Part shown: positions 15,701-62,030 of the stretch, piece by piece
How positions within the stretch are numbered: position 1 is the first letter of the stretch
Layout: each line of letters begins with the position of its first letter
Virus record (IMG/VR): IMGVR_UViG_3300031963_000044
Location: 1-64,000 of that record
Reading direction: 5' to 3' (one strand)
DNA length: 64,000 nt
From: a virus
Position numbers and translations under genes: made by a program
The notes under the pieces: generated by a model
Told to the model about the DNA's origin: nothing
The model's input: only the letters and a program-made list of their open reading frames with translations
Databases searched by the model: none

Positions 15701-15895
15701 TTATTTTTTATAACCCATTTCTACTGCTGTATCATAAGAAACATTATGTGCTGTTACACAATGTACTAAGATACCAAACACATAATAAAAAACAGTAACA
15801 TCTGTTTTTTGAACACTTACTTCGCCAATTTTACCCCATCCCCAAGGACCAACAACTACTTTTTTACCAAACAATGAATTTCTTCGATTGTTCAT
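15701..15895 (-). CDS. Unknown small basic protein
   Basis: 64 residues: KKVVVGPWGWGKIGEVSVQK then beta strands. Could be an SH3-like small barrel, but this is only from composition. Its start overlaps the stop of the RNA ligase gene upstream by 4 bases (ATGA). Confidence 0.55.
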   Translation of the reverse strand: MNNRRNSLFGKKVVVGPWGWGKIGEVSVQKTDVTVFYYVFGILVHCVTAHNVSYDTAVEMGYKK

Positions 15896-16872
15896 TTTTT
15901 AGAATCATAAGATTTGTTAATAACTTTAAAAGAACCATTTTCATGATTAATTACAACACCCTCAAAAGGTTTACCTTCAATTTTATCAATACCAACCGAA
16001 TATTTTTGAATCAACTCATTAGTTAATTCGACATCCAATTCAATGATATCAACGAATGGTAATTCCAATTCTTGCGCAACATTTCTAAAATAGAATCTAT
16101 CGTTCTTTCTATGATATTTACGTTCTTTAATGTTATATACAGAAAACATTACCCACCCTTTTGGTTTTTGAGAATGTGGATTGTTTCCAGAACTTTGAAT
16201 CCCTTGACCAAACGACTCACCACGAATGCACAAAGAAACATTATGTTTTTTGCAATAGTCAATAAGCTTATTTTTAATGTTGTAACGAGCAACATGTGCG
16301 GTATAGTTATTTACCGCATCCAACTTCATTTCCAAGTTTCTTCCAAGAACACCAAATTCATCAGTTTCAATGTTATAATAGAAACTACAACTTTGTCCAT
16401 CAACTTTAGATGTAACATCAACAATTGAACCGAATGGAAGTTCATCAATGATATTCTCAAATCGAATTTCATCAGTGGGACCAATTCCAACCGGAAGATA
16501 ACCTTTTGCTTGAAGATCTTGTGGTTGTGGTGCTTCATAATGAACAACACCAATTTGTTCACTCACATCAGAGCCAACTTGAAGATTTGATAAATCAACT
16601 GGAAGTTGTTCAAACCTAACAATAATACCTTCACTAAATTCGCCACGAAGTTTTACAGCTTTGATTCGTTTTGGTGAATATTTTCGATACTCTTCAGTCC
16701 AAGGTTCAATAGGAAGAACCGCATCAGGTCGAATATAAACAATTTTCTCACCACCCTTATAAAGTCCTTTTTGTGTAACGCATTGAAACCCAAGAATCTT
16801 AACAAGATCAAGTCTATCTGCATCAGGATGAGCTTTGACTTCAGAAATAATTTCAATCGTTGCGTCTTTCAT
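15892..16872 (-). CDS. RNA ligase, Rnl5 / DRB0094 family
   Basis: 326 residues. Residues 1-115 match the N-terminal OB-like module of Deinococcus Rnl-type ligases (AHPDADRLDLVKILGF, YIRPDAVLP, RIKAVKLRGEFSEGI). The nucleotidyltransferase domain follows with motif I KVDGQS (Lys nucleophile, about residue 158), motif Ia/III region SLCIRGE and WVMFSVYNI, motif IV PFEGVVI and motif V SFKVINKSY. It seals nicked RNA by 3'-OH/5'-P joining through a Lys-AMP intermediate. A second, Rnl1-type ligase is at 35032-36105. First gene of an operon running to 14602, promoter at 16893-16924. Confidence 0.9.
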   Translation of the reverse strand: MKDATIEIISEVKAHPDADRLDLVKILGFQCVTQKGLYKGGEKIVYIRPDAVLPIEPWTEEYRKYSPKRIKAVKLRGEFSEGIIVRFEQLPVDLSNLQVGSDVSEQIGVVHYEAPQPQDLQAKGYLPVGIGPTDEIRFENIIDELPFGSIVDVTSKVDGQSCSFYYNIETDEFGVLGRNLEMKLDAVNNYTAHVARYNIKNKLIDYCKKHNVSLCIRGESFGQGIQSSGNNPHSQKPKGWVMFSVYNIKERKYHRKNDRFYFRNVAQELELPFVDIIELDVELTNELIQKYSVGIDKIEGKPFEGVVINHENGSFKVINKSYDSKK

Positions 16873-18814: not shown

Positions 18815-18846
18815 CAAAGATAACTAAAACTTTTCAAACTGGCAAA
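18815..18846 (-). promoter_or_regulatory. Host-type promoter
   Basis: Minus strand: -33 TTTG, 20-base spacer, -7 TATCTTTG, 16 bases upstream of the ATG at 18799; it overlaps the 3' end of the recombinase gene. Confidence 0.7.
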
Positions 18847-19634
18847 TTAATTTTGTTCAAAATTTGATTTGAAACGTGTGTGTATATTTCTGTGGTTTTA
18901 ACATTTGAATGACCAAGAATTTTTTGAATAATTCTTAAATCTGTTCCATTTTCTAATAAGGATGTTGCAAAACTGTGTCTAAGTGTGTGTATATGTCCAT
19001 CAGATTCAATATATTTTTTGTATATTTTCTGACAACTACCTATTGAATATTTAGTACTGTTTTGTCCATTGAAGAGATATTCCTTTGGGATATAATTTTT
19101 ATAATAAGTTCTTAATAGTCTTAATACATTTTGAGATAATGGAACAACTCTATCTTTTCTTCCTTTTGCGTTCTTAATGTGGATTAACATTCGCTTGGAA
19201 TCAATATCCTCTATTTTAAGATTAATTATTTCTGAGACTCGTAGACCAACTGAAAAAGTTAAGGTGAGAATTGCTTTGTGTTTGAGATTATCAATCTTAT
19301 TTAATTTATCAATGATTGAATTTGAATCAATTACTTTTGGTAGTTTCTTCTCAGATTTAGGTCTTTTAAACGATATTTTATCATATTTTTTATTAAGACC
19401 AAATTTGTAGAGAAATCTTATTGCGTTAATGATTTGGTTTTGTTGTGCTGTTGAAGTGAATTTATAATTATCTAAATAGGATTGAAAATCTTGAGCATTA
19501 CAATGTATTACTTGTTTACTACCAATGTGATTTAAGAAATTTTTTATATGTGAAAGATAATTATCTTTTGTTCTTGGTGAATAGTTTAAATATATAAACT
19601 TTTCTTCACAAATCTTAATAATTTTATTATTCAA
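18834..19634 (-). CDS. Tyrosine recombinase (integrase, XerC/D-like)
   Basis: 266 residues. N-terminal SAM-like core-binding domain (about 1-90: YSPRTKDNYLSHIKNFL), then the catalytic domain with all expected residues: Arg in SVGLRVSEI, Lys in NAKGRKDRVVPL, HTLRHSFAT (H-x-x-R), GHSNVKTTEIYTH (His/Trp position and Tyr nucleophile in IYTHV). It makes staggered cuts through a 3'-phosphotyrosine. It lacks the extra helix region that marks integron IntI proteins and is shorter than IntI (about 320-340). The gene begins with TTG preceded by AAAGGA, one of very few Shine-Dalgarno-like sites here. It abuts the cassette array (19.68-28.2 kb), reads in the same direction, and lies at the array's 3' end, so it is the obvious candidate to act on the sites, though not proven. 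Confidence 0.92.
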   Translation of the reverse strand: MNNKIIKICEEKFIYLNYSPRTKDNYLSHIKNFLNHIGSKQVIHCNAQDFQSYLDNYKFTSTAQQNQIINAIRFLYKFGLNKKYDKISFKRPKSEKKLPKVIDSNSIIDKLNKIDNLKHKAILTLTFSVGLRVSEIINLKIEDIDSKRMLIHIKNAKGRKDRVVPLSQNVLRLLRTYYKNYIPKEYLFNGQNSTKYSIGSCQKIYKKYIESDGHIHTLRHSFATSLLENGTDLRIIQKILGHSNVKTTEIYTHVSNQILNKINLPV

Positions 19635-19682
19635 GTCCTTTATTTTTAAGTGGTTAGATTATACTTACTTATATATACTAGT

Positions 19683-19689
19683 TATGTAT
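19683..19689 (-). other. Terminal half attachment site (R''-like)
   Basis: ACATAAC on the minus strand right after the stop of cassette gene 19693-19899, with no R' partner before the recombinase gene. Flanked by a short ATTATAC/GTATAAT inverted repeat. Marks the 3' end of the cassette array. Confidence 0.5.
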
Positions 19690-19692
19690 AAT

Positions 19693-19899
19693 TTATTCCC
19701 AAATGATAACGCCTTTCATATTACCATGTGGATTAGTAAAAACGCCTTCATCATCTAAATCATACATATCCATAGTTCCAGAAAAATCAACTTGAATTGT
19801 GTTTAATTTTCCGTCCAAATTCCAATGAAGTGTTTTTACTTTTTTAATACCCCAGTCTTTACCGTGAATGTCGGTTATTTTAATTTTTGGTTGTTTCAT
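19693..19899 (-). CDS. Cassette gene a: unknown beta-rich protein
   Basis: 68 residues: KIKITDIHGKDWGIKKVKTLHW then alternating strands (NTIQVDFSGTMDMYDLDDEG, MKGVIIWE). Probably a small beta domain. Last cassette before the recombinase; driven by a promoter that sits in the loop of the upstream attC-like site (19962-19993). Confidence 0.6.
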   Translation of the reverse strand: MKQPKIKITDIHGKDWGIKKVKTLHWNLDGKLNTIQVDFSGTMDMYDLDDEGVFTNPHGNMKGVIIWE

Positions 19900-19930
19900 A
19901 AACTTTTATTTTAATTTGTGAATAAACTAT

Positions 19931-20025
19931 ACATAACAAGGTGTATATGTAATTTTTTTTACAAAGGTACGAATAAGTTTTGACATTTCCAAATAAAAAA
20001 CTACATATACACCCAATCGTTAGGC
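19931..20025 (-). other. attC-like site 1
   Basis: Minus strand: R'' GCCTAAC (20019-20025), an 11-bp arm pair GTGTATATGTA/TACATATACAC (20002-20012 with 19941-19951), R' GTTATGT (19931-19937). It starts directly after the stop of gene b and ends before gene a, the standard gene-attC order of an integron cassette. The loop holds a complete host-type promoter. Confidence 0.75.
19962..19993 (-). promoter_or_regulatory. Promoter inside the attC-like loop
   Basis: Minus strand: -33 TTTG, 20-base spacer, -7 TACCTTTG. It reads toward cassette gene a. Confidence 0.7.
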
Positions 20026-20029
20026 GCAA

Positions 20030-20248
20030 TTACAACAAACCCTTCGAGAAAAGTTGTGCAATTTGATTTTCGGTTAAATCTTCGCCTTTGAGCATTGCAG
20101 GTTCATTTACTCTTGTGCCATCGTGTTTAATTGTGTAGGTAACAGGATACTCTTTCTTCGGGTCAACAAATTTGACCAAGTAACTGCGCCTAACAACGTA
20201 TTGCTGAACATTGCCAGCTTCGTCTTTAACTTCAACTCTGATTTTCAT
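20030..20248 (-). CDS. Cassette gene b: unknown protein
   Basis: 72 residues, beta-rich: KIRVEVKDEAGNVQQYVVRR, YPVTYTIKHDGTRVNEP, then LTENQIAQLFSKGLL. More GC-rich than the surrounding phage genes. No family recognised. Confidence 0.6.
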   Translation of the reverse strand: MKIRVEVKDEAGNVQQYVVRRSYLVKFVDPKKEYPVTYTIKHDGTRVNEPAMLKGEDLTENQIAQLFSKGLL

Positions 20249-20287
20249 ATTTATTTTTTTGTTTTTAATTCAACATTTGTGTTTCAA

Positions 20288-20321
20288 ATTGGCAACGTCA
20301 GCAATACGCAAACCGTTATAT
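20288..20321 (-). other. attC-like half-site after gene c (R''-L'' only)
   Basis: Minus strand GCATATAAC-GG-TTTGCGTATTGCTGACG. The stop codon TAA of gene c lies within the R'' box, as also seen for gene f. I find no R' before gene b. Confidence 0.45.
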
Positions 20322-20597
20322 GCCACCTTGCGGTCTCAGCAACAAGTACCATCCGTTTTTTATGACATCTTCCCAAATCAATACTTCTGCATTCAAAGAT
20401 TGTGCTTGTTCAGTTATACCACCTTGTGCAAGTTGCCAAAGCATATTCATATTCAAAACATCTTCACGACTGATAAAGTATTGTTTTTTCAGTTCCAATT
20501 TTGACCAATCCCATGTTAACCCTTTCCTTCCCAAATCAAAAAGGCGGCATATAACAGCAGTTTGGCAAGATGCGGGGTTTTGTACTTCGTTTGACAT
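20316..20597 (-). CDS. Cassette gene c: unknown protein
   Basis: 93 residues starting MSNEVQNPASCQTAVICRLF; contains GLTWDWSKLELKKQYFISRE and ends GWYLLLRPQGGI. Noticeably higher G+C than phage genes nearby. Family not recognised. Confidence 0.6.
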   Translation of the reverse strand: MSNEVQNPASCQTAVICRLFDLGRKGLTWDWSKLELKKQYFISREDVLNMNMLWQLAQGGITEQAQSLNAEVLIWEDVIKNGWYLLLRPQGGI

Positions 20598-20654
20598 ATT
20601 GTTTTTTATTTAAAAATTTGTAATTCTAATCGTCTTTAGTGCTGTAAATCCCGC

Positions 20655-20682
20655 ACCTCGCCAAGCTGCGAAACGTTATGTG
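20655..20682 (-). other. attC-like half-site after gene d (R''-L'' only)
   Basis: Minus strand ACATAAC-GTTTCGCAGCTTGGCGAGG. The complementary L'-R' half is missing; gene c follows directly. Confidence 0.45.
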
Positions 20683-21050
20683 TAAGTGTTCCACCCATCG
20701 TTCTAATCAACATCTATGTTTAAAATTTTAAAAGAAAAATTATTTGTTAAATGGTTCACTAAACATAGTTTTAGGATATGTTTCTTCCTTTCTACTTGAA
20801 GGGTTAAATATAGTTACTCGTCCAACACCATACGGTTGGTTATCATATTTAATAACCAAATAATCCTTTTTATTATGAAGTTGGTAATTATCTTCTGGTG
20901 CGTTTTTACATGTGACGTATAACCCATCTTTAAAGTTTTCAAATTTTTTAACTATGTTTCCCATAATCTATATATTAATTTTTCTTTTAAAATTTTTGTT
21001 CAGTTCTCCGATTAAACATTCCACCTTAATAATCCACACCTACACATAAC
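20675..21050. repeat. Inverted-repeat-bounded cassette d
   Basis: Both ends read inward as GTTATGTGTA, and both inner ends carry AAAATTTTAAAAGAAAAAT in opposite orientation (5' copy near 20975, 3' copy near 20725), so gene d sits in the loop of a long imperfect palindrome. The same ends bound cassette m (24762-25312). Confidence 0.7.
20740..20964 (-). CDS. Cassette gene d: unknown beta-rich protein
   Basis: 74 residues: KKFENFKDGLYVTCKNAP, KKDYLVIKYDNQPYGVGRVT, then KEETYPKTMF. Looks like a small beta barrel. Carried in an inverted-repeat-bounded cassette. Confidence 0.6.
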   Translation of the reverse strand: MGNIVKKFENFKDGLYVTCKNAPEDNYQLHNKKDYLVIKYDNQPYGVGRVTIFNPSSRKEETYPKTMFSEPFNK

Positions 21051-21099
21051 AAATGATAAACAACATTAAAACGATTGTTTATCATCGGACGTTATTCCC
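21043..21099 (-). other. attC-like site 2
   Basis: Minus strand: R'' GGAATAAC, then GATGATAAACAA and its inverse TTGTTTATCATTT around an 11-base loop (TCGTTTTAATG), R' GTTATGTG. Nearly identical in arms and loop to site 10 (25677-25734), 4.6 kb away. Confidence 0.75.
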
Positions 21100-21102
21100 C
21101 AT

Positions 21103-21525
21103 TTAAAAAACCTCAAATGGAGACACGTAATACATATTTGGTTTATAATCTGCGTATGATACCGTTTTCTGTTGTAAATATATCTTTATACACGATGAAT
21201 CTTTTGCAGTCAACCAAAAATATTTCACATTCTTACTATATTTTTCATCGTTAATTCTATATTCTTGCCCCTTTTGAATACAAATATTTTCGTCAATAAC
21301 TTGATTTCTGTTAAATTCAATAAACGCTCCATAATCTCCAATTACAATTCTTTCATATCCTTTTGAAATTATTGTACCGTTTGCTGTTTTTAACTCAAAT
21401 TCAGAATCACCATTGATATTCAAACATTTTGGTATTTCAGACAAATATTGGTTTCTTACCTTGTCAGATAATTCTGATGGAAGTTTTTTGTATTTATATT
21501 GTAATGCTAATTCGTCTTGTAACAT
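21103..21525 (-). CDS. Cassette gene e: unknown protein
   Basis: 140 residues from MLQDELALQYKYKKLPSELS; beta-rich middle (DSEFELKTANGTIISKGYER, AFIEFNRNQVI) and aromatic C-terminus (YADYKPNMYYVSPFEVF). The frame could start at 21555, inside attC-like site 3, so 21525 is preferred. No family recognised. Confidence 0.6.
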   Translation of the reverse strand: MLQDELALQYKYKKLPSELSDKVRNQYLSEIPKCLNINGDSEFELKTANGTIISKGYERIVIGDYGAFIEFNRNQVIDENICIQKGQEYRINDEKYSKNVKYFWLTAKDSSCIKIYLQQKTVSYADYKPNMYYVSPFEVF

Positions 21526-21545
21526 AAAAAATTGGATAAAAACGG

Positions 21546-21677
21546 GGCATAACACACGGTATAAAAAATTGGGGCGTGTGTGCGTTCCCGAAGGTTTGTA
21601 CTATTAATTATCATTGTATCGGTGCGAAAGTTTATATCTTTTAATCCCCAACTTTTCATACCGTCAACCGTTATGCG
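21546..21677 (-). other. attC-like site 3
   Basis: Minus strand: R'' CGCATAAC (overlapping the stop of gene f), arm pair ACGGTATGAAAAGTTGGGG with CCCCAATTTTTTATACCGT (unpaired bases on one arm only, as in real attC sites), R' GTTATGCC. About 132 bases. Confidence 0.8.
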
Positions 21678-21973
21678 GGATCGAGAACAATGCCGTGCGC
21701 TTTAAACACCGCCTCGACCTCTCCGATCCCGACCGCCCACACAATATCGTGTCCTCCGGATCCATCGCTTATATGCAGTCGTTCCTGTTCTGCGAGAATC
21801 TCTCGCACCATCGCCTTCACCTCGCTCTCGGTGAACACGCGCTCTTTCTTTTCCGAGCTCGCCTGAGGCTTTTCGCCTGAGCAGCGGCGGCACGGTCTTG
21901 GTGGATTGATGCTGATGTGACCTCCGCACTTGGAGCACTTGCCGCTCGATGGGCCTAACTTCCTTTTTGCCAT
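21671..21973 (-). CDS. Cassette gene f: GC-rich zinc-ribbon protein
   Basis: 100 residues. Two Cys pairs, CSKCGG (about 13-18) and CRRC (about 28-31), form a likely zinc ribbon; then a helix (FTESEVKAMVREILAEQERL). By hand count the gene is close to 58-60 percent G+C whereas its neighbours are near 30 percent, a clear sign of recent acquisition from a GC-rich source. Its TAA stop is part of the recombination site. Confidence 0.75.
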   Translation of the reverse strand: MAKRKLGPSSGKCSKCGGHISINPPRPCRRCSGEKPQASSEKKERVFTESEVKAMVREILAEQERLHISDGSGGHDIVWAVGIGEVEAVFKAHGIVLDPA

Positions 21974-22012
21974 TGTACCTTTTGCTTTTTACCGAGTGAA
22001 AAAGAATGACCC

Positions 22013-22073
22013 CGCATAACAGTCGGGTTGCCGTTATTGAATGCACAACGGCAACCCGCCGAACCGTTATGTG
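22013..22073 (-). other. attC-like site 4
   Basis: Minus strand: R'' CACATAAC, arms CGGGTTGCCGTT/AACGGCAACCCG (12 bp, perfect) around a short loop, R' GTTATGCG. GC-rich, like gene f next to it. Confidence 0.85.
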
Positions 22074-22078
22074 TAATA

Positions 22079-22486
22079 CTACATTTGTTCTCCGATTTGA
22101 GTTTCATCTGCAATATCTTTTTCTTTTCTTTTTTCTCCACGCTCTTTAAGAGTAATAATATTATTTCTCAAAGAATTTATTTTTCTTTCGTATTCTTTGA
22201 ATTTTAAATATTCATCATCATATATTTTTATTCTTTCAACATTTTCTGGTGTGTTTTCAGCCAAAGCCCAAGAATAAGTTGCTTGTAATCTTTCACCAGT
22301 TTCTTTACAAGTAAATTCATAACTGCCATTATCTCGTTGAATAACATTATTCATTATCGTTCCAATTTTAATTGGTTTACTTTCAAGTTTGTTAGGTATC
22401 CAAACCATATCTAATCTGTAAATATATTCCATATCAGATTTTGGTTTTCCATTGTCTTTATCTATTAAACAATCAAATATTCCCAT
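22079..22486 (-). CDS. Cassette gene g: unknown protein
   Basis: 135 residues: beta-rich N-terminal half (YIYRLDMVWIPNKLESKPIK, GSYEFTCKETGERLQATYSW) and a charged C-terminal coiled coil (YERKINSLRNNIITLKERGE). Third gene of a three-gene cassette (i, h, g) with gaps of 1-4 bases, unusual since most cassettes carry one gene. Confidence 0.6.
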   Translation of the reverse strand: MGIFDCLIDKDNGKPKSDMEYIYRLDMVWIPNKLESKPIKIGTIMNNVIQRDNGSYEFTCKETGERLQATYSWALAENTPENVERIKIYDDEYLKFKEYERKINSLRNNIITLKERGEKRKEKDIADETQIGEQM

Positions 22487-22487
22487 T

Positions 22488-23087
22488 TTATTTATTATTA
22501 AATATGTTTATAATTTTTCGAATTTCATCTTGTTTCCAAGGTCTATTCTTACTGCCATCTTCAGAAATTGTTAAATAATCACCATCATATCCCAATGCTC
22601 TTTCAATTAACCAAGGTCTTGATTCTTGTTCAACTGCAATCCACCCATCTTTTGTTTTACCAATTGGAGTACTTCCTTCCTTAATTTCTTCACTACCATC
22701 TAATGGTAATAAATCTCTTGTTTCATTATAAATTATTCTTGTATCTTTGAATAGTTCATACACTAATCCAACATCTTCACCAGTCCATTCAGTATCTTCT
22801 GTTTGATGTTCATATTTTTTAGCAAGAAAATAACCATCAGATTCTGTTCTTAAAACATATTTTTGATGTAATATTTTTCTACATTCTCTATTATAATGGT
22901 CAATAGTGTTTTGAATATCTTCTTGTCCTTTCCAATAGTTGTCTTCGCCTACCGAAAGCGAATCACCATTTTGTGGCTGTTCACCAACAAATTTTTGATT
23001 ATCTAAACAAGCCAGTATCATTTCAAAGGAATCTTCCGATATTACAATGTTTCCTTTACCGTCTTTTTTTGCTTCAATTTTCATCAT
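22488..23087 (-). CDS. Cassette gene h: unknown acidic protein
   Basis: 199 residues, acidic; helix-rich N-terminal half (SFEMILACLDNQKFVGEQ; DIQNTIDHYNRECRKILHQK) and a beta-rich C-terminal half (GKTKDGWIAVEQESRPWL). Two ATGs in tandem at the start. Middle gene of the i-h-g cassette. No family recognised. Confidence 0.6.
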   Translation of the reverse strand: MMKIEAKKDGKGNIVISEDSFEMILACLDNQKFVGEQPQNGDSLSVGEDNYWKGQEDIQNTIDHYNRECRKILHQKYVLRTESDGYFLAKKYEHQTEDTEWTGEDVGLVYELFKDTRIIYNETRDLLPLDGSEEIKEGSTPIGKTKDGWIAVEQESRPWLIERALGYDGDYLTISEDGSKNRPWKQDEIRKIINIFNNK

Positions 23088-23091
23088 AGTT

Positions 23092-23325
23092 TTAAATTTT
23101 AGTTTTTAACATTTCTTTATAAGCATTACCTGTATCAAATTGTTGTTCAAATGTTGGATTTGGATAATGTTCGTTTTTAATCCAATTATCGTGATGTTCA
23201 AATGTTCTCCATTCATTATCACGTAATTCTTTTACCATATTCATCAATCCAGTTCCAACTTTCATATCAGAAGGAATTTCAACTCCACCATCTGGTGTAA
23301 CTTTTACAATTGTTTCTAATTTCAT
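23092..23325 (-). CDS. Cassette gene i: unknown small protein
   Basis: 77 residues from MKLETIVKVTPDGGVEIPSD. The first ATG downstream of the long A/T leader is used; the longer frame runs through that leader, which matches the leaders of cassettes p, d and m (GGAGAACTGAAC then CTTTTTCTTTTC). First gene of the three-gene cassette. Confidence 0.6.
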   Translation of the reverse strand: MKLETIVKVTPDGGVEIPSDMKVGTGLMNMVKELRDNEWRTFEHHDNWIKNEHYPNPTFEQQFDTGNAYKEMLKTKI

Positions 23326-23432
23326 ATTATTTATTTTTAAATTTTTCAAATTTATTTTGTCCAACCCACAAAAAAGAAAAGAAAAAGGTTCAGTTCTCCG
23401 AATGAGCATTTGTAGTTTAAATCCGTACTACT

Positions 23433-23526
23433 GCTAACATCGTGTATAAAACATAGCCAATTAAGGTCTGTGGTTTATATTAAGTATTGTGCGTGGCTAC
23501 GTTTCATACACCCAACCGTTAGGTGT
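23433..23526 (-). other. attC-like site 5
   Basis: Minus strand: R'' CACCTAAC, arms GTGTATGAAACGTAGCCA with TGGCTATGTTTTATACAC (extra bases on one side), R' GTTAGC. Confidence 0.8.
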
Positions 23527-23534
23527 AATAAATT

Positions 23535-23723
23535 TTACTCCAACACACCCTTCAAAGTTCGTTTCTTCATTTCACCAAAGTTTCTTTCTTCTTCTGCCAA
23601 TTTTCGTAGTTCTTCTTGAAGTTCCATTGGTATTTTATCACCATACTTACCAAGTATCTGAAATAATAATGTTTCCCTACCTAAAGAAACTTTCATATCA
23701 ATTAACAGTTGTATATCTTTCAT
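23535..23723 (-). CDS. Cassette gene j: small helical protein
   Basis: 62 residues, helical: MKDIQLLIDMKVSLGRETLL, MELQEELRKLAEEERNFGEM. Nothing recognised. Confidence 0.6.
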   Translation of the reverse strand: MKDIQLLIDMKVSLGRETLLFQILGKYGDKIPMELQEELRKLAEEERNFGEMKKRTLKGVLE

Positions 23724-23742
23724 AATCCGTAAAATTTACATA

Positions 23743-23876
23743 CACCTAACAAAGTATAACCAAAAGTGGGGTGTAGTTCCAACATTCAGATATTGTGCTT
23801 CTAATTTACTTTTGTAGGTAAGTCAGGGTTCGGCACTTCTAATCCCCACCTTCGGTTATACTCAACCGTTATAAGT
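23743..23876 (-). other. attC-like site 6
   Basis: Minus strand: R'' CTTATAAC, arms AGTATAACCGAAGGTGGGG with CCCCACTTTTGGTTATACT, R' GTTAGGTG. Confidence 0.8.
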
Positions 23877-23887
23877 AATAAAACAAA

Positions 23888-24118
23888 CTACTTTATTCTG
23901 TTTATTTTTATAATAAATATTTTAGTGAAAATCATCCAGATCATAAATAAAGTTGAAGACGAAACTAAAATATTTACCAAAAATTGTTTTACACTGAATC
24001 CAAAGTGTGATAAATACCACCACCCACTAATAGAACTACCTATTGTTAAAAATAAACAGAATAAAATAAACAGTGTATATAATATACCATCTAGCGTAAT
24101 TTGACCTTCAATTTTCAT
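23888..24118 (-). CDS. Cassette gene k: two-helix membrane protein
   Basis: 76 residues with two membrane helices (about 10-33 and 45-68; LYTLFILFCLFLTIGSSISG and STLFMIWMIFTKIFII). No family recognised. Confidence 0.6.
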   Translation of the reverse strand: MKIEGQITLDGILYTLFILFCLFLTIGSSISGWWYLSHFGFSVKQFLVNILVSSSTLFMIWMIFTKIFIIKINRIK

Positions 24119-24148
24119 ATTTAATTATTATTTAGTTTGTTTTACATA

Positions 24149-24235
24149 CTTATAACAACAAATATAAGAAATAAATTTTGATTTATCTAATTTTTATAGG
24201 TAAAATTTACTTCTCATATTTACAACCGTTATGCA
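24149..24235 (-). other. attC-like site 7
   Basis: Minus strand: R'' GCATAAC, arms AAATATGAGAAGTAAATTT with AAATTTATTTCTTATATTT, R' GTTATAAGT. The L' arm contains the -7 element TATATTTG pointing at gene k; the -33 position reads TTAG (one mismatch). Confidence 0.75.
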
Positions 24236-24291
24236 AAAGTGTGGCAAGAAAGTTTTGTCTATAATTTGAAATTTTGGAGTTGCCACACCTT
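24236..24291 (-). other. Gene-less spacer between two attC-like sites
   Basis: Between R' of site 8 and R'' of site 7 there is no ORF, only an inverted repeat AAGGTGTGGCAA/TTGCCACACTTT. It has the form of an empty cassette. Confidence 0.5.
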
Positions 24292-24770
24292 CGCATAACA
24301 ACGGCTAAAACGACAATATTTAAAAACTTTCCCACCGCACAATTGAACAATTAAGAATTACCAAGTATAATGTCAATCACTTCTTTTGGTGCTTCTATCA
24401 ATTCATCTTCACGGTATTTTCTCCATCCTGCCTGATTTTCTTCTTGTGAAATACTGTGAGCAATCACCCAAGTAAATTCTCCTTTTTCAGAATACTTTTC
24501 TACAAATTCCTTTTGAGCAATTACATGTTTGCACAAATAAAATACCTGCGTTCCTGCATAGCAAGTTTGTGCAATCACTTCCATTACTTCCAAAGCACTC
24601 ATCTGGTTCTTTGAATTGGTGTCGAATTTTCTTTTCACCAAATTGTTTACGTCAAATTTTGTTTTGATTTCCATTTTACTTTTTGTTTTTAATTATTATT
24701 ATTTAATTGATTAATTATTTCCCTCGCAAAAGTTTTTAAATACTGCGTTTAGCCGATATACGTTATGTGT
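24292..24770 (-). other. Giant attC-like site 8 enclosing gene l
   Basis: Minus strand: R'' CACATAAC (24762-24769), left arm CGGCTAAACGCAGTATTTAA, then about 400 bases holding gene l, then right arm TTTAAATATTGTCGTTTTAG..CCG and R' GTTATGCG (24292-24299). The two arms pair over about 29 bases with few mismatches. Confidence 0.65.
24351..24674 (-). CDS. Gene l: unknown protein nested in a site loop
   Basis: 107 residues, helical: SALEVMEVIAQTCYAGTQVF, then CKHVIAQKEFVEKYSEKGEF and a C-terminal APKEVIDIILGNS. It lies entirely between the two arms of attC-like site 8, so excision of the usual cassette would move it together with gene m. Not recognised. Confidence 0.65.
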   Translation of the reverse strand: MEIKTKFDVNNLVKRKFDTNSKNQMSALEVMEVIAQTCYAGTQVFYLCKHVIAQKEFVEKYSEKGEFTWVIAHSISQEENQAGWRKYREDELIEAPKEVIDIILGNS

Positions 24771-25312
24771 AAGCGTTCCGTTCATCGTTCTAATCAACAT
24801 TTCGGTTGAAAATTTTAAAAGAAAAATCAAAATCCATAATGAAACCATTTATCATCATTTGGTAGTTGTTCTTTTAATTGTTTGTTTATTTTTCCCACTA
24901 TATTTTGAGCAGTAACCGAAGTTATACCTTTAACATCAAAATCATAAGCAATTTGACCGATTGAATATACAAACATTCTCAGTAATTCTCTTGGTATATC
25001 AAATGTTATATCCACATCATAAGTATAGTTTTTACCAGAAAAGTTTATTTCGTCACTTATTGGTCGCATAACTAAGTGATGTAAATCTTCAAACCAATCC
25101 TTACTCAGTCTTTCACAACCTTTTTTCATCATTGACTCTACCCAAGTTCCAGATGAATTCCACTCTTCTCTTGTTAGAGAAATTTTAACCACCTTTTCAA
25201 AATAATTGATAGTTGTAATTTTTTGTTTATAATTCATATATTTTTCTTTTAAAATTTTTGTTCATTTCTACTATTTAACATTCTACCTTAATTAACCACA
25301 CCTACACATAAC
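24762..25312. repeat. Inverted-repeat-bounded cassette m
   Basis: Ends read inward as GTTATGTGTA and carry inverted AAAATTTTAAAAGAAAAAT next to gene m on both sides. The 3' end shares CATCGTTCTAATCAACAT with cassette d, so d and m have homologous ends around different genes. Confidence 0.7.
24827..25237 (-). CDS. Cassette gene m: unknown protein
   Basis: 136 residues: N-terminal helices (VKISLTREEWNSSGTWVESM), then a beta segment (NFSGKNYTYDVDITFDIP) and helices. Nothing recognised. Unlike most cassettes, its ends are long inverted repeats. Confidence 0.6.
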   Translation of the reverse strand: MNYKQKITTINYFEKVVKISLTREEWNSSGTWVESMMKKGCERLSKDWFEDLHHLVMRPISDEINFSGKNYTYDVDITFDIPRELLRMFVYSIGQIAYDFDVKGITSVTAQNIVGKINKQLKEQLPNDDKWFHYGF

Positions 25313-25402
25313 AAGGTGTATAAGAAAGTTTGCTATAAAGTTCAGTGGTTAATTTGAAAGTTCATCTAAGCAAACCTTCTCATACACCCAACCGTTATAA
25401 GT
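25305..25402 (-). other. attC-like site 9
   Basis: Minus strand: R'' CTTATAAC, arms GTGTATGAGAAGGTTTGC with GCAAACTTTCTTATACAC, R' GTTATGTG. One of the clearest sites. Confidence 0.85.
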
Positions 25403-25408
25403 AATAAT

Positions 25409-25654
25409 TTAAAATTTATTTATTATTTTATTTTCAATATATTCTTTAACTTTTGACGGTAATATTTGTGTTGGAAATGACCCTTCCGCACCAACATACA
25501 TTTCACTACTTGCAACATCACTTGCATCTATTTTATAATATTGTTCATCTGGTGAACATATCGTTACATGAGTTACCTCACCCCATCTACCAGAACCAAC
25601 CCAATAAAACCATAGGTCATTTCCAATATGTATTTTTCTTTTCGTTTTTTTCAT
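25409..25654 (-). CDS. Cassette gene n: unknown protein
   Basis: 81 residues: basic start KKTKRKIHIGNDLWFYWVGS, strands (EVTHVTICSPDEQYYKID) and C-terminal helix (LPSKVKEYIENKIINKF). Not recognised. Confidence 0.6.
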   Translation of the reverse strand: MKKTKRKIHIGNDLWFYWVGSGRWGEVTHVTICSPDEQYYKIDASDVASSEMYVGAEGSFPTQILPSKVKEYIENKIINKF

Positions 25655-25676
25655 AGGTATAAATTGTAAATTACAT

Positions 25677-25734
25677 ACTTATAACAGCAAATAAAACACA
25701 TTAAAACGATTGTTTATCATCAGACGTTATAAAC
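25677..25734 (-). other. attC-like site 10
   Basis: Minus strand: R'' TTTATAAC, GATGATAAACAATCGTTTTA (shared with site 2), right arm GTTTTATTTGC, R' GTTATAAGT. Short form (58 bases). Confidence 0.65.
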
Positions 25735-25736
25735 AA

Positions 25737-26015
25737 TTAAATTATTTTCCGCAACAGTTCATCTTTATCCAAAAAAATATCATCCTGTTTATACCAATCA
25801 TAACTAGATAAATGTCCACCTGAAGGATAGAATTGTTCATTAACTACAACCAAGTAATCAATTTCAATTCCATCCATTTGTTCCATTGTTTCGCCTTTGA
25901 TATAAGGTACCCCATGAACAATTCTAATCTTTTCAATTTTACTTTTAAATATTTTTTTGGATAAAAGTATATATACTTCTTGTCCAACATCATACTTTAC
26001 ATTATATGTTTTCAT
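25737..26015 (-). CDS. Cassette gene o: small beta-barrel-like protein
   Basis: 92 residues: YNVKYDVGQEVYILLSKKIF, then KSKIEKIRIVHG, YLVVVN and a C-terminal tail DDIFLDKDELLRKI. The layout 'xVGQxVYxLxxxKIxxxxIxxI ... LDKDELL' belongs to a widespread family of uncharacterised small bacterial and phage proteins. Confidence 0.65.
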   Translation of the reverse strand: MKTYNVKYDVGQEVYILLSKKIFKSKIEKIRIVHGVPYIKGETMEQMDGIEIDYLVVVNEQFYPSGGHLSSYDWYKQDDIFLDKDELLRKII

Positions 26016-26032
26016 AATAAAATAATTTAACG

Positions 26033-26157
26033 TGTTTATAACAACAAATATAAAACATTTATTTCAGCGTTCCAAATTTATTGTTGGTTTATATTTATAT
26101 ACTGTTTTTCAATTTAAGTTTAGTTTAAAACGTTTTATATTTGCAACCGTTATAAGC
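26033..26157 (-). other. attC-like site 11, with internal promoter
   Basis: Minus strand: R'' CTTATAAC, left arm GCAAATATAAAAC, right arm GTTTTATATTTGTT, R' GTTATAAAC. A complete host-type promoter (TTTG at 26073-26076, 20-base spacer, TATATTTG at 26045-26052) lies inside and points at gene o. Confidence 0.8.
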
Positions 26158-26162
26158 AAGTG

Positions 26163-28136
26163 CTACATCTCGTTTCCAAATATAGTCCCTACATGTAAAT
26201 CTTTTTCTTTTCTTTTTTCTTCCCACGCTTTTTTTATTTCCATAGAAAGAAATGGTAAAATCGAAAAAAGTAGTTTATTTAAGTGTTTTAAAACATAGTA
26301 AAACTCTGTTTCATATTTAATTCTCATATTGGAATTTGTGTCAGATTCATAAAATTCATTTTTAATATCCTCCGTCAACAAAGATGAATAATAGTTTATA
26401 AATTCAACAAAACCCCTTACTGCTTTATTCAAATCAAATTCATTGACAAGTAAATCAAATTTATTTTCCAACTCTTTTACTTTAAAAAAAATATTTTCAT
26501 CAACTTTTGTTTCATCATAATCATATATATATAGATTATTAAATAAATAACGGAGAAAGTTTCTTATTTTAAAATATTGTTTACCAGAGTTTTTTAATGA
26601 ATCTTCCGAAAAGACAATATCGTTTTTAAAATCTGACAGTAAAACCCATAGTCTTAATACATCAGGGTTATATGTTTCATACAGCTTTTCCAAACTTCCG
26701 CCATTACCTTTTGATTTTGATAGTTTTTCTAATGTGTTATCAACAATAAATCCGTGTGTTATTATTCTTTTTGTTGGTACTCGACCAATCATTGATGCTA
26801 ATATAATCGAACTTTGAAACCACCCTCTGTGTTGGTCTGAACCTTCAATGTATATATCGGCAGGTTTATCATACATCATAAATGTAGAACCACTATCAAA
26901 CCAAACATCCAATATATCATTACTATTAGGTATTTTAACACCCCATTTTCTTTGTCTTGAAATACACCAATCTTTGCGTGAAAATATTGTCGTTGATAAA
27001 CGATTTCTGTCTTTTGATGATAACTTTATTTCTTTTAAACAAGTCTTTATTTTGTTTAAATCAAAATCAAGATACGTTTGTTCCGTTAATACTTTATACA
27101 CCTTATTCCCTTCACGCCAATCAATTGGATAATCGTGTGTGTAAATTTCACGTTTATATACAAACTTTTCATCAATTTTAAAATCTTCTATGTGTTTTAA
27201 TAAGCCGATTTTATCGCACACATTTTTGGGGGTTATGTTATTATCCATTAAAATTCGATAATCTTCATCACCGTGTCCACCGCAAAGATGTACTATACCT
27301 GTTTTATCATCTGAAACGTAGTCATCATAAATAATTGGACATAAATCTCCATTGTGGTTATGATATGACTTAATATTACTCACATCAAACAAATCATAAT
27401 CTAAATTATTTTCAATAGCAAAACTTTCACTACAAATAATATTGTCAACAGTTTTAACATATTTTATATTATTACTTAAACATACTGCCTGATTTCCGTT
27501 TACAGTCCATTCTGTTGTTGTCCAAACAAGTAATTTAAAACTATCAGAGTTGAATAGAAAATACAAAGATTCATCTTCTATTTTTTTATATTCAATTTCT
27601 GAGTTAGCCAATACTGTTTTTAATGTTGGTGAGTACCAAGTAGGCTTATTCTTTTTAAGAATTAGACCCGCATTTAGTAGTTGGTGGTATATATATAATT
27701 CTCTTTCTATAAAATCAATATCCATAGTTTTAAACCTACCTTCAGTTGGATAAATCCCGAAAAGTTCAAGAGTTTTATTTTGAATATCACAATATTTGGT
27801 TGCGACTAATTTAGCATTTTGAATTAAATCACCACTCATTTCTTTTGCTTTATTTTCAATGGGTAAACCATGACAGTCCCAACCAAATGAAACCCTAACT
27901 TTCTTACCTTTTGTTAAGTAATATTTTACAACAAAATCTTTCAAGGTTTTGTTTAAAAAATGTCCCAAATGTAATTCTCCATTGGCGTATGGTTCACCAT
28001 CTTGTATAATGTATTCATCATTTGAATTTTCATACAAGTTGTTCACATAATCTTTGATAGAAGCGTTCAATAAAGTAAGTTTATCTCTATCTAACTTCTG
28101 TGTAATTTCTTCTTTTGGTAATAATACTTTATTCAT
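26163..28136 (-). CDS. ileS: Isoleucyl-tRNA synthetase, compact form, in a cassette
   Basis: 657 residues; cellular IleRS is about 930-1050. Class I signatures are intact: ELHLGHFLN (HIGH motif, about 52-60), FGWDCHGLPIE, editing-domain landmarks WTTTEWTV and GIVHLCGGHGDEDY, DVWFDSGSTF, GSDQHRGWF and KLSKSKGN (KMSKS). It stops soon after the anticodon-binding helices, so the C-terminal zinc-binding part is missing. It would charge tRNA-Ile with isoleucine in the cytoplasm. First gene of the array, bounded by a half-site (28225-28233) and site 11. Possible roles: replace a host enzyme that is inhibited or degraded, or give resistance to an IleRS inhibitor (inference). Confidence 0.9.
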   Translation of the reverse strand: MNKVLLPKEEITQKLDRDKLTLLNASIKDYVNNLYENSNDEYIIQDGEPYANGELHLGHFLNKTLKDFVVKYYLTKGKKVRVSFGWDCHGLPIENKAKEMSGDLIQNAKLVATKYCDIQNKTLELFGIYPTEGRFKTMDIDFIERELYIYHQLLNAGLILKKNKPTWYSPTLKTVLANSEIEYKKIEDESLYFLFNSDSFKLLVWTTTEWTVNGNQAVCLSNNIKYVKTVDNIICSESFAIENNLDYDLFDVSNIKSYHNHNGDLCPIIYDDYVSDDKTGIVHLCGGHGDEDYRILMDNNITPKNVCDKIGLLKHIEDFKIDEKFVYKREIYTHDYPIDWREGNKVYKVLTEQTYLDFDLNKIKTCLKEIKLSSKDRNRLSTTIFSRKDWCISRQRKWGVKIPNSNDILDVWFDSGSTFMMYDKPADIYIEGSDQHRGWFQSSIILASMIGRVPTKRIITHGFIVDNTLEKLSKSKGNGGSLEKLYETYNPDVLRLWVLLSDFKNDIVFSEDSLKNSGKQYFKIRNFLRYLFNNLYIYDYDETKVDENIFFKVKELENKFDLLVNEFDLNKAVRGFVEFINYYSSLLTEDIKNEFYESDTNSNMRIKYETEFYYVLKHLNKLLFSILPFLSMEIKKAWEEKRKEKDLHVGTIFGNEM

Positions 28137-28224
28137 TATTTTAAATTTTATTTTCCCACCACACAAAAAGAAAAGAAAAAGGTTTCGTCTTTCAAATCAA
28201 GTTCTGTGCTATAATACCGCACCT

Positions 28225-28233
28225 GCTTATAAC
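28225..28233 (-). other. Terminal half attachment site (R'-like)
   Basis: Minus strand GTTATAAGC preceded by GCATATACACGCT, i.e. an L'-R' half without the matching R''-L''. It marks the 5' boundary of the array and has the form expected of an attI or an insertion junction. Confidence 0.5.
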
Positions 28234-28264
28234 AGCGTGTATATGCAAGTGGCGGGTTTGTGGT

Positions 28265-35031: not shown

Positions 35032-36105
35032 TTAATCTTCTTTATTCCAATAAGGTTTTTGATATTTTGGTCTTACCAAATCCCAAATTAGTGGTTTATA
35101 ATTTCTATTATCCAACATCGAATACAATATTTTTTGATATCTTGGAATCACATTCGATTGTATCCATAATGCTTTATCTTTTCTATTTTCAAGTTGTTGA
35201 TTATTGAGTTCATCTTTTTTTGTATTGCAGACTGATAAAATGTAATCAAAAGACTTGTTCAAGTCAAATATCTTACCTCTAACCCACTTATCAAATTCAT
35301 CTGGAACTTTATTCAAGAACGCATAAATATCATCTTCGTTTTTCAAACATTCCCAAATATCAACGTTTGAAAAATTGGTTATTAATTTATGCAAACGAAC
35401 ATATTCATCAAATTTAATTTTGATTCGATAGTTAGATGGTTCAAATTTAATAATATAACCCTCTCTATTTTCTTCAAAAGAATTCTTTAATGATTTATAA
35501 TCAAATACATTTCCATATTCTTTAACAATATGTGAATTGGGTATTTGACAACGATTAAATTCTTCTTTGCACTGAGACCAAGAAAGTTCCTTATCTTTAT
35601 GATAGATGGATAAGAAAAATAGTTTTTCCTCATTATAAACCACAACAATCGTGTTTTCAACATAAATTATTTCAACTAGATATGTGTATTCCGGATTTAA
35701 CAAATCAACACGATACAAATTATGTAATATTTCCTCAGCTTTTTGCGCTTGTTCAGACATAAAAGAACCTCTGGTTGCTACATTCCACTTATTATCATAA
35801 TAATAAATAATTCCAAGTGATCCATCACATTTATCTTGCACAATCGGATTTTCTTTTACAATAATATTAAACGCGGAGTGATTTTGTGGTAATTCTTCAT
35901 AATTAAAAAACTTTGAGAATCCTCTAGCAATTAAATTACCGTTCTCATCAAGAATGAGACCACGACAATTAAGCGTAATATCGTCCCACTTATTATCAAA
36001 CTGAGTTTTTCTTGAGTAATTATAAATAAAAAGATTTTTGGTTGGGTGTTTTGTTTCTTCTACCCAACCATCAATAACATATTGCTTTATTTTATTATGA
36101 TTCAC
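35032..36105 (-). CDS. rnlA: RNA ligase 1 (T4 Rnl1-like)
   Basis: 357 residues (T4 Rnl1 is 374). Motif I KCDGSLG with the AMP-accepting Lys at about residue 93; LNCRGLILD and FSKFFNYEE upstream as in T4 Rnl1; motif IV REGYIIKFE; motif V RIKIKFDEYVRLHK; and the Rnl1-specific all-helical C-terminal domain. It joins 5'-phosphate and 3'-OH ends of broken tRNA anticodon loops. Overlaps the Nudix gene by 4 bases. T4 pairs Rnl1 with a polynucleotide kinase/phosphatase; I see none in the window. Confidence 0.92.
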   Translation of the reverse strand: MNHNKIKQYVIDGWVEETKHPTKNLFIYNYSRKTQFDNKWDDITLNCRGLILDENGNLIARGFSKFFNYEELPQNHSAFNIIVKENPIVQDKCDGSLGIIYYYDNKWNVATRGSFMSEQAQKAEEILHNLYRVDLLNPEYTYLVEIIYVENTIVVVYNEEKLFFLSIYHKDKELSWSQCKEEFNRCQIPNSHIVKEYGNVFDYKSLKNSFEENREGYIIKFEPSNYRIKIKFDEYVRLHKLITNFSNVDIWECLKNEDDIYAFLNKVPDEFDKWVRGKIFDLNKSFDYILSVCNTKKDELNNQQLENRKDKALWIQSNVIPRYQKILYSMLDNRNYKPLIWDLVRPKYQKPYWNKED

Positions 36106-56556: not shown

Positions 56557-56958
56557 ATGTCTAAAAAAATTAAATTAACCGAATCTGAATTAATTACTGA
56601 ATTAAAAAAATTTTTATTAGAGCAATCTGATAATGATGAGTTTAATGATGAAGAGATTGATGACTATAATCCAAGACAAGAATTAATTAATAAATTAAAG
56701 CAATTAATAGATTCTAATGATGAATTTGATGAAGCTGTCATTGATGATATTGATTCAGATGGTAAGCCACATAGAAGAGCTAGAGGCTCGATATATGTTG
56801 ATTTATTTGTTCCTGAAACTGACGATAAAGAATTTGATCGTAATGTTGCCATGAAAATGATGGAATATTTTGCCAGCCAAATTAAAGAAAATAATTATGT
56901 GGGCGGTGTTGCATTTAAAACTGGTGATTTAACAAATCCATTTGATGCTAAATTTTAA
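56557..56958 (+). CDS. Acidic protein with KLTES N-terminus
   Basis: 133 residues starting MSKKIKLTESELITELKKFL followed by LEQSDNDEFNDEE. This head is nearly the same as in the LRR gene at 36982 although the rest is unrelated (acidic alpha/beta, DAVIDDIDSDGKPHRRARGS), which points to a targeting tag. Convergent with gp46 gene, overlapping by 4 bases. Confidence 0.7.
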   Translation: MSKKIKLTESELITELKKFLLEQSDNDEFNDEEIDDYNPRQELINKLKQLIDSNDEFDEAVIDDIDSDGKPHRRARGSIYVDLFVPETDDKEFDRNVAMKMMEYFASQIKENNYVGGVAFKTGDLTNPFDAKF

Positions 56959-60753: not shown

Positions 60754-61254
60754 TTATTTTTTTATTGGATTGTTTAAGTTTGAGCCATTCAAAAAAATTG
60801 CCGGTTTACTGTAAACTGTATTAATTTCGTTTAACGTATTTTCTAGTTCACCAATTTTTTTGTTTTTCTCATTTAATTCGTTTCTAAGTTTTTGTATTGT
60901 TGCTTCCAGAGCTTTTTGTTTTTCTTTATTTTCAATAATAATTTCTTTTTCAACAATTACCTCTTTAATAACTTGATTTTCAACAGGAATTTCTTTTGTC
61001 ACTTCTTTTATAACTTCAACCGGTTTTTCAATCTCAACATATTCAATTACAGGTACTTCTTTTATAACATCACGATAAACTATTTTTTCTATTTCTTTTT
61101 CAATAATTTTTGGTTCAACGTCATTCAAAAGACCATATTTTTCAATATCAAAACCGCTTTTAATTATTTTAATAAAAAAAGAATCAACATTTTCAATATT
61201 ATTTAATTTACAATATTGATTAATTTCATCTTTTATGTTTTTTGGAATCGTCAT
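60754..61254 (-). CDS. Protein with long repetitive Val/Glu/Lys coiled stretch
   Basis: 166 residues. N-terminal small helical domain (KDEINQYCKLNNIENVDSFF; IKSGFDIEKYGL), then a repetitive charged region rich in EKEIEK, EVPVIEYVEIEKPVEV, KEIPVEN (extended linker) and a C-terminal coiled coil. Its head resembles a ribbon-helix-helix or small DNA-binding unit, tentatively. Lies between gp47 and the WC-family gene with an ATGA overlap. Confidence 0.6.
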   Translation of the reverse strand: MTIPKNIKDEINQYCKLNNIENVDSFFIKIIKSGFDIEKYGLLNDVEPKIIEKEIEKIVYRDVIKEVPVIEYVEIEKPVEVIKEVTKEIPVENQVIKEVIVEKEIIIENKEKQKALEATIQKLRNELNEKNKKIGELENTLNEINTVYSKPAIFLNGSNLNNPIKK

Positions 61255-62030
61255 TCATTTACTAAAATTTCATTACCATTTTCAATATCATCGATTGACG
61301 ATATCTTAAATTTAAGAAATGGTCTCTTATTTGTCAAATCGTGAGTAGTATATTTATCTTGTTTTACATCATAAACCCCATAACCATGATTGGATATTTT
61401 CTCACCAAAATTCTGCATAGCGCATGAGCCAATCATATATGCTTTTCTTCCATTTGGGATATCAAAAATTTGCCTCCTGTGTATATCCCCACATAAAACG
61501 AGGTCGCACCCATCAAATCCATTCTTATCAAAACCCGAATCAAACTCATAACCAACATCAGTCTTTAATCCAACAATTGGTCCATGAAATAATCCAATTT
61601 TTAGTCTATCATTTTTTTCAATTACCGGAGGTATATTATGTTCATACAATGAATATACAACCCAATCAATGTTATCATCTTCATAAACACCTCTTGTTTT
61701 GTAATAAACAATATTTGAATCATTTAGTGCGTCAAGAACAGGACTAATTGCATCAAGTCTCGACATATTGTTTTCAAGAAAATCATGGTTTCCCGGAATT
61801 AGAATTGTTTTACAAATACTTGAACATTCGGTCAAAACCCAACGAATCATTTCTACAAGTTCTGGTGTCATTTGATTCTTACTATGAACCAAATCACCAG
61901 TAAAAACAATTCTATCTGGTTTTATATCTCTCCACTGTTTAAAAGCATCAGACATAATTTCACGATACAAATCGTGATCCTTAAATAACCTAATGTGTAG
62001 GTCACTAAAATGAATAATTTTATTTATCAT
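61251..62030 (-). CDS. 47: Recombination endonuclease subunit, T4 gp47 / Mre11-SbcD-like
   Basis: 259 residues: FSDLHIR (D-x-H), FTGDLVHSK (GD), ILIPGNHDF (GNHD), LFHGPI and LCGDIHRRQ. Compact Mre11 phosphoesterase with two metal sites; cleaves DNA together with the gp46 ATPase at 56955-59282. In T4 the two genes are near neighbours; here five genes lie between them. Confidence 0.9.
   Translation of the reverse strand: MINKIIHFSDLHIRLFKDHDLYREIMSDAFKQWRDIKPDRIVFTGDLVHSKNQMTPELVEMIRWVLTECSSICKTILIPGNHDFLENNMSRLDAISPVLDALNDSNIVYYKTRGVYEDDNIDWVVYSLYEHNIPPVIEKNDRLKIGLFHGPIVGLKTDVGYEFDSGFDKNGFDGCDLVLCGDIHRRQIFDIPNGRKAYMIGSCAMQNFGEKISNHGYGVYDVKQDKYTTHDLTNKRPFLKFKISSIDDIENGNEILVNE

Follow-up and report, generated by a model that had tools for sequence, protein, structure and literature searches.

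A probable phage-borne integron-like platform with reversed gene cassettes beside a Xer-like tyrosine recombinase

Do the palindromic sites that separate a run of small genes in a T4-like phage genome form an exchangeable cassette array, and if so, which enzyme serves it and which site travels with which gene? The locus that raises this question lies in a 64,000-nucleotide stretch of viral DNA (hereafter the window), which is positions 1-64,000 of the 102,635-base (102.6-kb) IMG/VR record IMGVR_UViG_3300031963_000044. In this window attC-like sites alternate with minus-strand genes beside a minus-strand gene (18834-19634) for a 266-residue tyrosine recombinase, a gene that an initial annotation of the window did not mention. 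Our analysis indicates that the array is very probably a phage-borne integron-like platform with reversed cassettes that is run by this adjacent recombinase. The reading is drawn from sequence, namely from the sites and their structure, a signature in the bases that flank the R boxes, an attI boundary, linkage to the recombinase gene, the units of exchange and the orientation of the genes.

Sites were located with a box-and-arm search (TAAC, paired arms, GTTA) whose thresholds were tuned on this window, and with a covariance model trained on 25 sites that all came from other phages and none from this window. The finder returned 11 strong compact sites between 19934 and 26152, exclusively on the minus strand, and at scores of at least 32 there were 10 minus-strand sites as compared to 0 in six shuffles of the window. 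Within the window the other-phage model made 11 matches, with E values from 7e-21 to 0.025 and none outside the array, and it added a twelfth compact site (25674-25737) to the finder list. A model search of the whole record matched 22009-22077, a site already among those of the finder, and gave zero sites outside the array. Note that this model, the downstream and opposite-strand controls and the flanking-base statistic described below do not depend on the finder thresholds in the same way. The array also holds a giant site (R'' at 24765, R' at 24296) with a gene (24351-24674) within its loop; nine sites of this giant type (230-430 bp) occur in the arrays of other phages, whereas 508 kb of control DNA contained none. 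With 12 compact sites in addition to the giant one, all of them attC-like, the palindromic array that had initially been described with ten compact sites is real and larger than stated. The 48-bp type of site, as seen at 21047-21094, has 34 near-identical copies across viral loci. A scan with Rfam gave a single tRNA in the window and no match at the sites, and the phage-site model gave no match to class 1 or Vibrio attC sites, which limits the sequence kinship with the latter to the box bases and the overall plan.

The 25-site alignment has 97.4% of its cells paired; with shuffling the value falls to 74%, and sliding the arms lowers it to 34-54%. Compensatory change is present in 18 of its 25 pairs. 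One G.T pair within the stem (columns 38/91) is invariant and a basal G.T pair (columns 13/105) is nearly so. Since both become A.C mismatches on the opposite strand, this difference may serve to distinguish the strands, substituting for extrahelical bases. The gene-coding strand is the better-folding strand in 272 of 281 sites. Thus these are palindromic sites with covarying arms, conserved R boxes and one strand that folds better, as expected for an integron. Some attC loops contain a start codon or an entire gene.

Relatives of the recombinase were sampled from at least 80 viral contigs (loci are labeled by L and a number), a sample that is smaller than the family, and they reveal what the mobile unit is. 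The six bases outside the boxes match at a mean of 5.14 of 6 positions when compared across one gene (n = 228), whereas those of one physical site match at a mean of only 2.32 (n = 293), with a random value of 2.29. A match across the gene that is absent within the site is predicted only where a gene and its attC had previously been joined in a circle, which is also the form in which integron cassettes integrate. A cassette of 315 bp is common to L027 and L047 at 100% identity with differing neighbors, and other cassettes with different neighbors are shared by L029/L053 (99.8%), L004/L018 (99%), L050/L052 (97.5%), L020/L047 (93%) and L009/L031 (86%). All six of these pairs share the upstream attC and the gene but not the downstream attC. 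In nearly all of them the shared stretch runs from the TAAC of the upstream site to the TAAC of the downstream site, or ends a few bases off, and in L020/L047 the similarity continues for about 20 bases into similar arm sequence. These TAAC-to-TAAC stretches indicate that the mobile unit is an attC plus the gene located 3' of it. Variation among related phages had been predicted at the G/TT of the R' box; cassettes with different neighbors are indeed found, but the breakpoints sit at the AA|C box, which had been called R''. Cassette exchange is evidently seen in natural variation, with the phage trading single genes with other viruses, and strong support for the proposed mobile store of cassettes in a T4-like phage comes from covariation, the R-box signature, breakpoints at the boxes and the presence of an integrase with an attI-like element.

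The end of the array is 49 bp from the recombinase gene, which is on the same strand as the cassette genes. Between the two is a constant motif, AAC-TATTATATATA, that also precedes relatives of the recombinase of some 50-80% protein identity. In viral loci AAC TA(T)TATATATA is conserved, and conservation changes sharply at the AAC box, with variable DNA upstream of it and constant DNA downstream on the integrase side; DNA similarity of the window to L009 and L077 begins at 19685 and 19684, respectively. On the opposite strand the constant motif reads TATATATAATA-G|TTRRR, and in the window this conservation boundary corresponds to an attI-like element at 19655-19686 (plus-strand reading TATATATA-CTA-G|TTATG). 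The constant motif is a good candidate for attI, with cassettes entering after the G and the newest cassette on the variable side, and its position would give an attI next to the integrase gene as in integrons. Variation of the newest cassette falls exactly at this element in dozens of loci. Position 19683, which had been regarded as an R''-only half-site, is therefore where the array meets the attI-like element that is conserved beside the integrase gene, and insertion of the array as one block is not supported, as this end is the growing attI end. Sites are present upstream of the integrase in all 47 of 47 independent contigs that have at least 1.5 kb of upstream DNA. Overall there are 225 upstream sites on the integrase strand, 0 upstream on the other strand, and 7 + 1 sites in 601 kb downstream of the integrase.

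The recombinase matches Pfam PF00589 (1.9e-37) and has R132, H216, R219, H242 and Y251 as conserved catalytic residues, all in columns that are invariant among its relatives. Its top NCBIfam match is XerA_Arch at 195 bits (cut-off 220), and it scores 161 bits in two pieces against integrase_gron (TIGR02249), for which the cut-off is 265. IntI4 from the PDB also aligns in two pieces, with IntI4 residues 180-259 (about 80) opposite to about 31 residues of the query, and the predicted structure (mean predicted local distance difference test score of 85) is nearest to XerA and IntI4. The recombinase thus does not have the IntI-specific additional domain that IntegronFinder uses to define IntI (PMC9668308), and by that definition it is not an IntI. 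In phylogenetic analysis the phage sequences group with those of ten contigs from bacterial assemblies in a clade (100/100) that is separate from the IntI clade (100/100), with the phage recombinase outside the latter. One group of sequences served in this comparison solely as IntI references, with no claim on its taxonomy. The phage clade is placed among Xer-like recombinases of Bacteroidota that lack upstream arrays, and a sister relation of the phage clade and IntI is not rejected (approximately unbiased test, p = 0.205). The system appears from these comparisons to work like an integron with an enzyme from outside the IntI family, and integron software that requires the IntI-specific domain is expected to miss this integrase. 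No relative above 42% identity was found in isolated phages. The isolate genomes of Sunxiuqinia indica (L114) and Mesonia aquimarina (L120) carry a phage-type integrase and the attI element, which indicates that cultivable hosts exist. In L114 both are located at the end of a contig, and in L120 (strain MCCC 1A11700) the attI element is accompanied by a single site (E = 1.6e-4).

Several observations weigh against a platform run by the adjacent recombinase with genes that travel behind their attC. The enzyme is Xer-like and without the domain that is held necessary for attC recombination by IntI. The array of Polaribacter phage P12002L has no nearby relative of this integrase, and the LR756500 and LR745206 arrays have no integrase relative in the surrounding 24-30 kb, which means that another enzyme could act on them. 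Furthermore, a cassette shared by L047 and L075 has the same downstream site and a different upstream site, the shared downstream site being of the ubiquitous 48-bp type. A Xer-like enzyme and arrays with no relative of it nearby would suit a passive cluster of attC sites lacking an associated integrase (CALIN) that is kept by a host integron integrase or Xer, with the adjacent recombinase engaged in dimer resolution, phage integration or the like. We consider this improbable given the linkage of sites to the integrase in 47 of 47 contigs, the conservation of the attI element along with the integrase gene, and, in dozens of loci, a change of the newest cassette precisely at this element. Although the array has an associated integrase and is not a CALIN on that count, software applying the strict IntI definition is expected to report it as one. 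Regarding the arrays that are distant from any integrase relative, LR756500.1 (L233, 462 kb) and LR745206.1 (L234, 635 kb) are uncultured huge phages that have the same site family and reversed genes.

The orientation of the cassettes bears on a second alternative, in which the downstream attC belongs to the gene and recombination occurs at the G|TT of R'. This classical arrangement underlies the gene-attC order that was initially annotated, and minus-strand genes with sites close behind their stop codons (a median of 12 nt over 190 cassettes) are indeed what is observed; the ambiguous L047/L075 cassette also fits. However, the six contig pairs share the upstream and not the downstream attC, and 73 of 190 genes have their start codon within the upstream attC with a stop codon never located within the downstream one. 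The attI end also retains only an R'' box. In addition, the gene strand here reads AACG...TGTTA (G in 287 of 294 and T in 292 of 294 cases, neither base being imposed by the finder), whereas in class 1 and Vibrio arrays the attC on the gene strand reads AACA...CGTTA; in these flanking bases, as in its folding, the gene strand here resembles the bottom strand of classical attC. A classical orientation, our initial working view, is contradicted by these observations and was dropped as very unlikely. As the travelling attC lies 5' of its gene, and given the position of attI, the 197 of 199 cassette open reading frames (ORFs) on the integrase strand, the 73 starts within attC and the strand bases, the cassette genes are reversed and point to attI. 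This is opposite to the integron arrangement, in which genes face away from attI and bottom-strand selectivity orients the cassette for expression from the promoter Pc at attI (PMC8946536); in the phage arrays this Pc-expression logic is inverted. Note that the same finder and model put the sites of Bacteroidota chromosomes, such as those of L167 (Algoriphagus), on the strand opposite to the genes, so the tools themselves do not produce the reversal seen in the phages.

That the palindromes are merely terminators or structured RNA, shuffled by ordinary homologous recombination, has hardly any probability left: they are intergenic and the 48-bp type is repeated, but R boxes match across genes and not within sites, arms of unrelated sequence covary, breakpoints fall at TAAC with unrelated flanking arms, no upstream sites are on the other strand and none matches Rfam.

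We infer that the platform would operate as follows. The attC would fold into a hairpin on the gene-coding strand, which the 266-residue recombinase would cut at 5'-YYYAA|C-3' and join to the double-stranded attI next to the recombinase gene. Catalysis by this integrase, the use of a single strand and the formation of circles, each an attC followed by its gene, are all parts of this proposal. Cassettes would enter at 19683, and, as in classical integrons, growth would push the array away from the integrase; because the attC is opposite in orientation to the gene, the gene would enter facing attI on the integrase strand. Transcription towards attI would probably be by read-through and not from an attI promoter, and as all genes run in the direction of the integrase, read-through from upstream phage promoters is the likely means of cassette expression. 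Unidirectional phage transcription may have selected for reversed cassettes. A search within cassettes revealed no systematic promoter; the Bacteroidota -7 motif is present in 24 of 198 upstream regions (26 matches; shuffled mean of 17) and the full TTTG-N-TAnnTTTG in 6 of 198 (0.2 expected).

Comparison with known systems places this platform near to, but apart from, each of them. It has the R''-L''-L'-R' plan, strand-biased folding and cassette-circle R-box signature of class 1 and Vibrio integrons as well as attI at the integrase start, growth away from the integrase and small, mostly unassigned genes. It differs in an integrase that is without the IntI-specific domain and outside the IntI clade, in genes that point to attI and so leave no role for an attI promoter, in ORFs that sometimes start or lie within attC and in having large T4-like phages as carriers. 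Qi et al. 2023 (PMC9892861) have reported CALINs in phages and integrons in prophages. These likewise provide attC arrays in phage genomes but are integrase-less clusters or bacterial integrons acquired by temperate phages, whereas the present phage family owns an integrase and attI. Outside support for the platform comes from that study, in which IntI1 recombined attC2 of P12002L (PMC9892861): the sites of P12002L are matched by our model at E = 7e-5 to 3e-3 and lie on the same strand as its genes. The integration of CTX-phi, where Xer uses a single-stranded phage site in folded form (see PMC4792948), likewise involves a recombinase without the IntI-specific helix (as in XerA and XerCD), a hairpin substrate and a phage context. 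CTX-phi, however, has no recombinase of its own and no cassettes, and dif is double-stranded, whereas the present phages combine a dedicated enzyme with an attI and an array. Finally, Bacteroidota chromosomal clusters by longer Xer-like recombinases, as in L167, also have model-matched sites with the AACG...TGTTA core, but their sites are opposite to the genes, as in classical integrons, and downstream of the recombinase. Such attC-like sites occur downstream of Xer-like recombinases (ORFs of 398-592 residues where measured) in L167, L172, L190, L146, L165, L171 and L178, and these loci are possibly a chromosomal integron-like system with a non-IntI enzyme.

Our survey of the literature, which covered neither preprints nor most subscription papers, found no family of phage integrons that brings a non-IntI recombinase of its own, and no description of systematically reversed cassettes. 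Escudero et al. 2016 (PMC4792948) knew of no complete system in which a Xer-like enzyme acts on folded phage sites and raised a viral origin of integrons as speculation. We offer as a tentative proposal, held at somewhat less than even odds, that the phage family represents a second, IntI-independent and virus-borne integron lineage, in which a Xer-grade recombinase without an I2-type domain is either an independent invention or a relic of the stage that gave rise to bacterial integrons. The viral origin suggested for integrons could be tested directly on this family. In the textbook view the extra domain is necessary for attC recombination and cassette orientation is explained by Pc; the phage arrays have neither and nevertheless show clear natural exchange of cassettes, so they could reveal what is required for a Xer-like enzyme to become an integron integrase. 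They also provide large phages with a route to trade single genes, among them DNA methyltransferases, acetyltransferases, RNA ligase and tRNA synthetase.

The carrier of the array is a large T4-like virus. A region of 20.6 kb that includes the array is present at 100% identity in two further IMG/VR contigs of 84 and 256 kb, the latter of which encodes a T4-type gp23 major capsid protein, and a gp23-type capsid protein was found in 8 of 12 tested contigs with integrase relatives, some of which exceed 300 kb. The host is probably a member of the Bacteroidota. The location of the platform varies by phage, with homologues of the window's neighboring genes found at many distances and on either side of the integrase. 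The window also contains SbcC- and SbcD-like (gp46/47-type) genes at 56955-59282 and 61251-62030. SbcC and SbcD are a nuclease pair with specificity for palindromes, and the phage pair could process attC hairpins. Two RNA ligase genes of different PHROG families are located at 15892-16872 and 35032-36105, and an RNA ligase is also present as a cassette in the array of L009.

Reading from the integrase gene, which has a TTG start, all array genes and sites are on the minus strand, and unless noted each compact site was found by both the finder and the model. The first cassette gene (19693-19899, 68 residues, no assigned function) is followed by the site at 19934-20022 (85 bits). Genes at 20030-20248 (72 residues) and 20316-20597 (93 residues) have their start codons within the sites at 20191-20318 and 20552-20678, respectively. 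Next are three genes with no assigned function and their sites: 20740-20964 (74 residues) with the 48-bp site at 21047-21094, 21103-21555 (a 150-residue ORF) with 21550-21673, and 21671-21973 (100 residues) with 22017-22069, the last site being identified by the finder and the whole-record model search. The gene at 21671-21973 has a GC content of 57% as compared to 29% for the window, and cassette composition is uneven (25 to 57% GC), as had been noted initially. A three-gene cassette (22079-23409; genes at 22079-22486, 22488-23087 and 23092-23409) precedes the site at 23435-23521, and a 62-residue gene (23535-23723) that at 23747-23871. A gene for a 76-residue protein resembling a small membrane protein (23888-24118) is followed by the site at 24153-24231 and then by an ORF-less cassette (about 24231-24296) that is only box-to-box DNA with an extended palindrome, GTGTGGC...GCCACAC. 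The giant site (24296-24765), whose loop gene codes for 107 residues, is followed by a 136-residue gene with no assigned function (24827-25237), the site at 25309-25397 that is the top model match (104 bits), an 81-residue gene (25409-25654), and a site of the common short type at 25674-25737 (model only, 22.5 bits, in a span that takes in flanks). A 92-residue gene (25737-26015) and the site at 26039-26152 lead to the most distal gene (26163-28166, 667 residues), which is isoleucyl-tRNA synthetase (IleRS)-like.

The distal end at 28222-28245 has L' and R' (ATACACGCTG-TTATAAGC) with no matching L'' arm, which is missing or decayed. It had been annotated as an R'-only half-site at 28225; it is a half-site, but reads from 28233 downwards, and inspection shows its R' to agree with the R'' box that belongs to the IleRS cassette. 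We propose that this most distal cassette is the oldest, and the apparent decay of its attC may have locked it in position. The IleRS-like protein has HLGH and KLSKS motifs and matches NCBIfam ileS at 6.8e-115, below the cut-off; a tRNA synthetase is unusual as integron cargo. The remaining window cargo consists of small proteins without assigned function, with PADLOC and Pfam giving only sub-threshold noise for the window cassettes beyond IleRS. Among 94 cassette proteins of other phages there are 22 Pfam families, including DNA methyltransferases, GNAT acetyltransferases, RNA ligase and an exoribonuclease-like protein, and most proteins are without assignment. For the IleRS and 24827-25237 proteins the only further occurrences found were in the two contigs that are identical to the window. 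A homologue (89%) of the 22488-23087 protein is encoded adjacent to a different array (L239, L240), with no clean cassette breakpoint. Finally, two cassettes have leaders and trailers that are about 90% identical (25240-25314 to 20978-21052 and 24760-24827 to 20673-20740). Their genes are unrelated, which looks as though one gene had replaced another between conserved cassette ends; the leader is partly complementary to the trailer, and a similar trailer is also present in L042 and L071.

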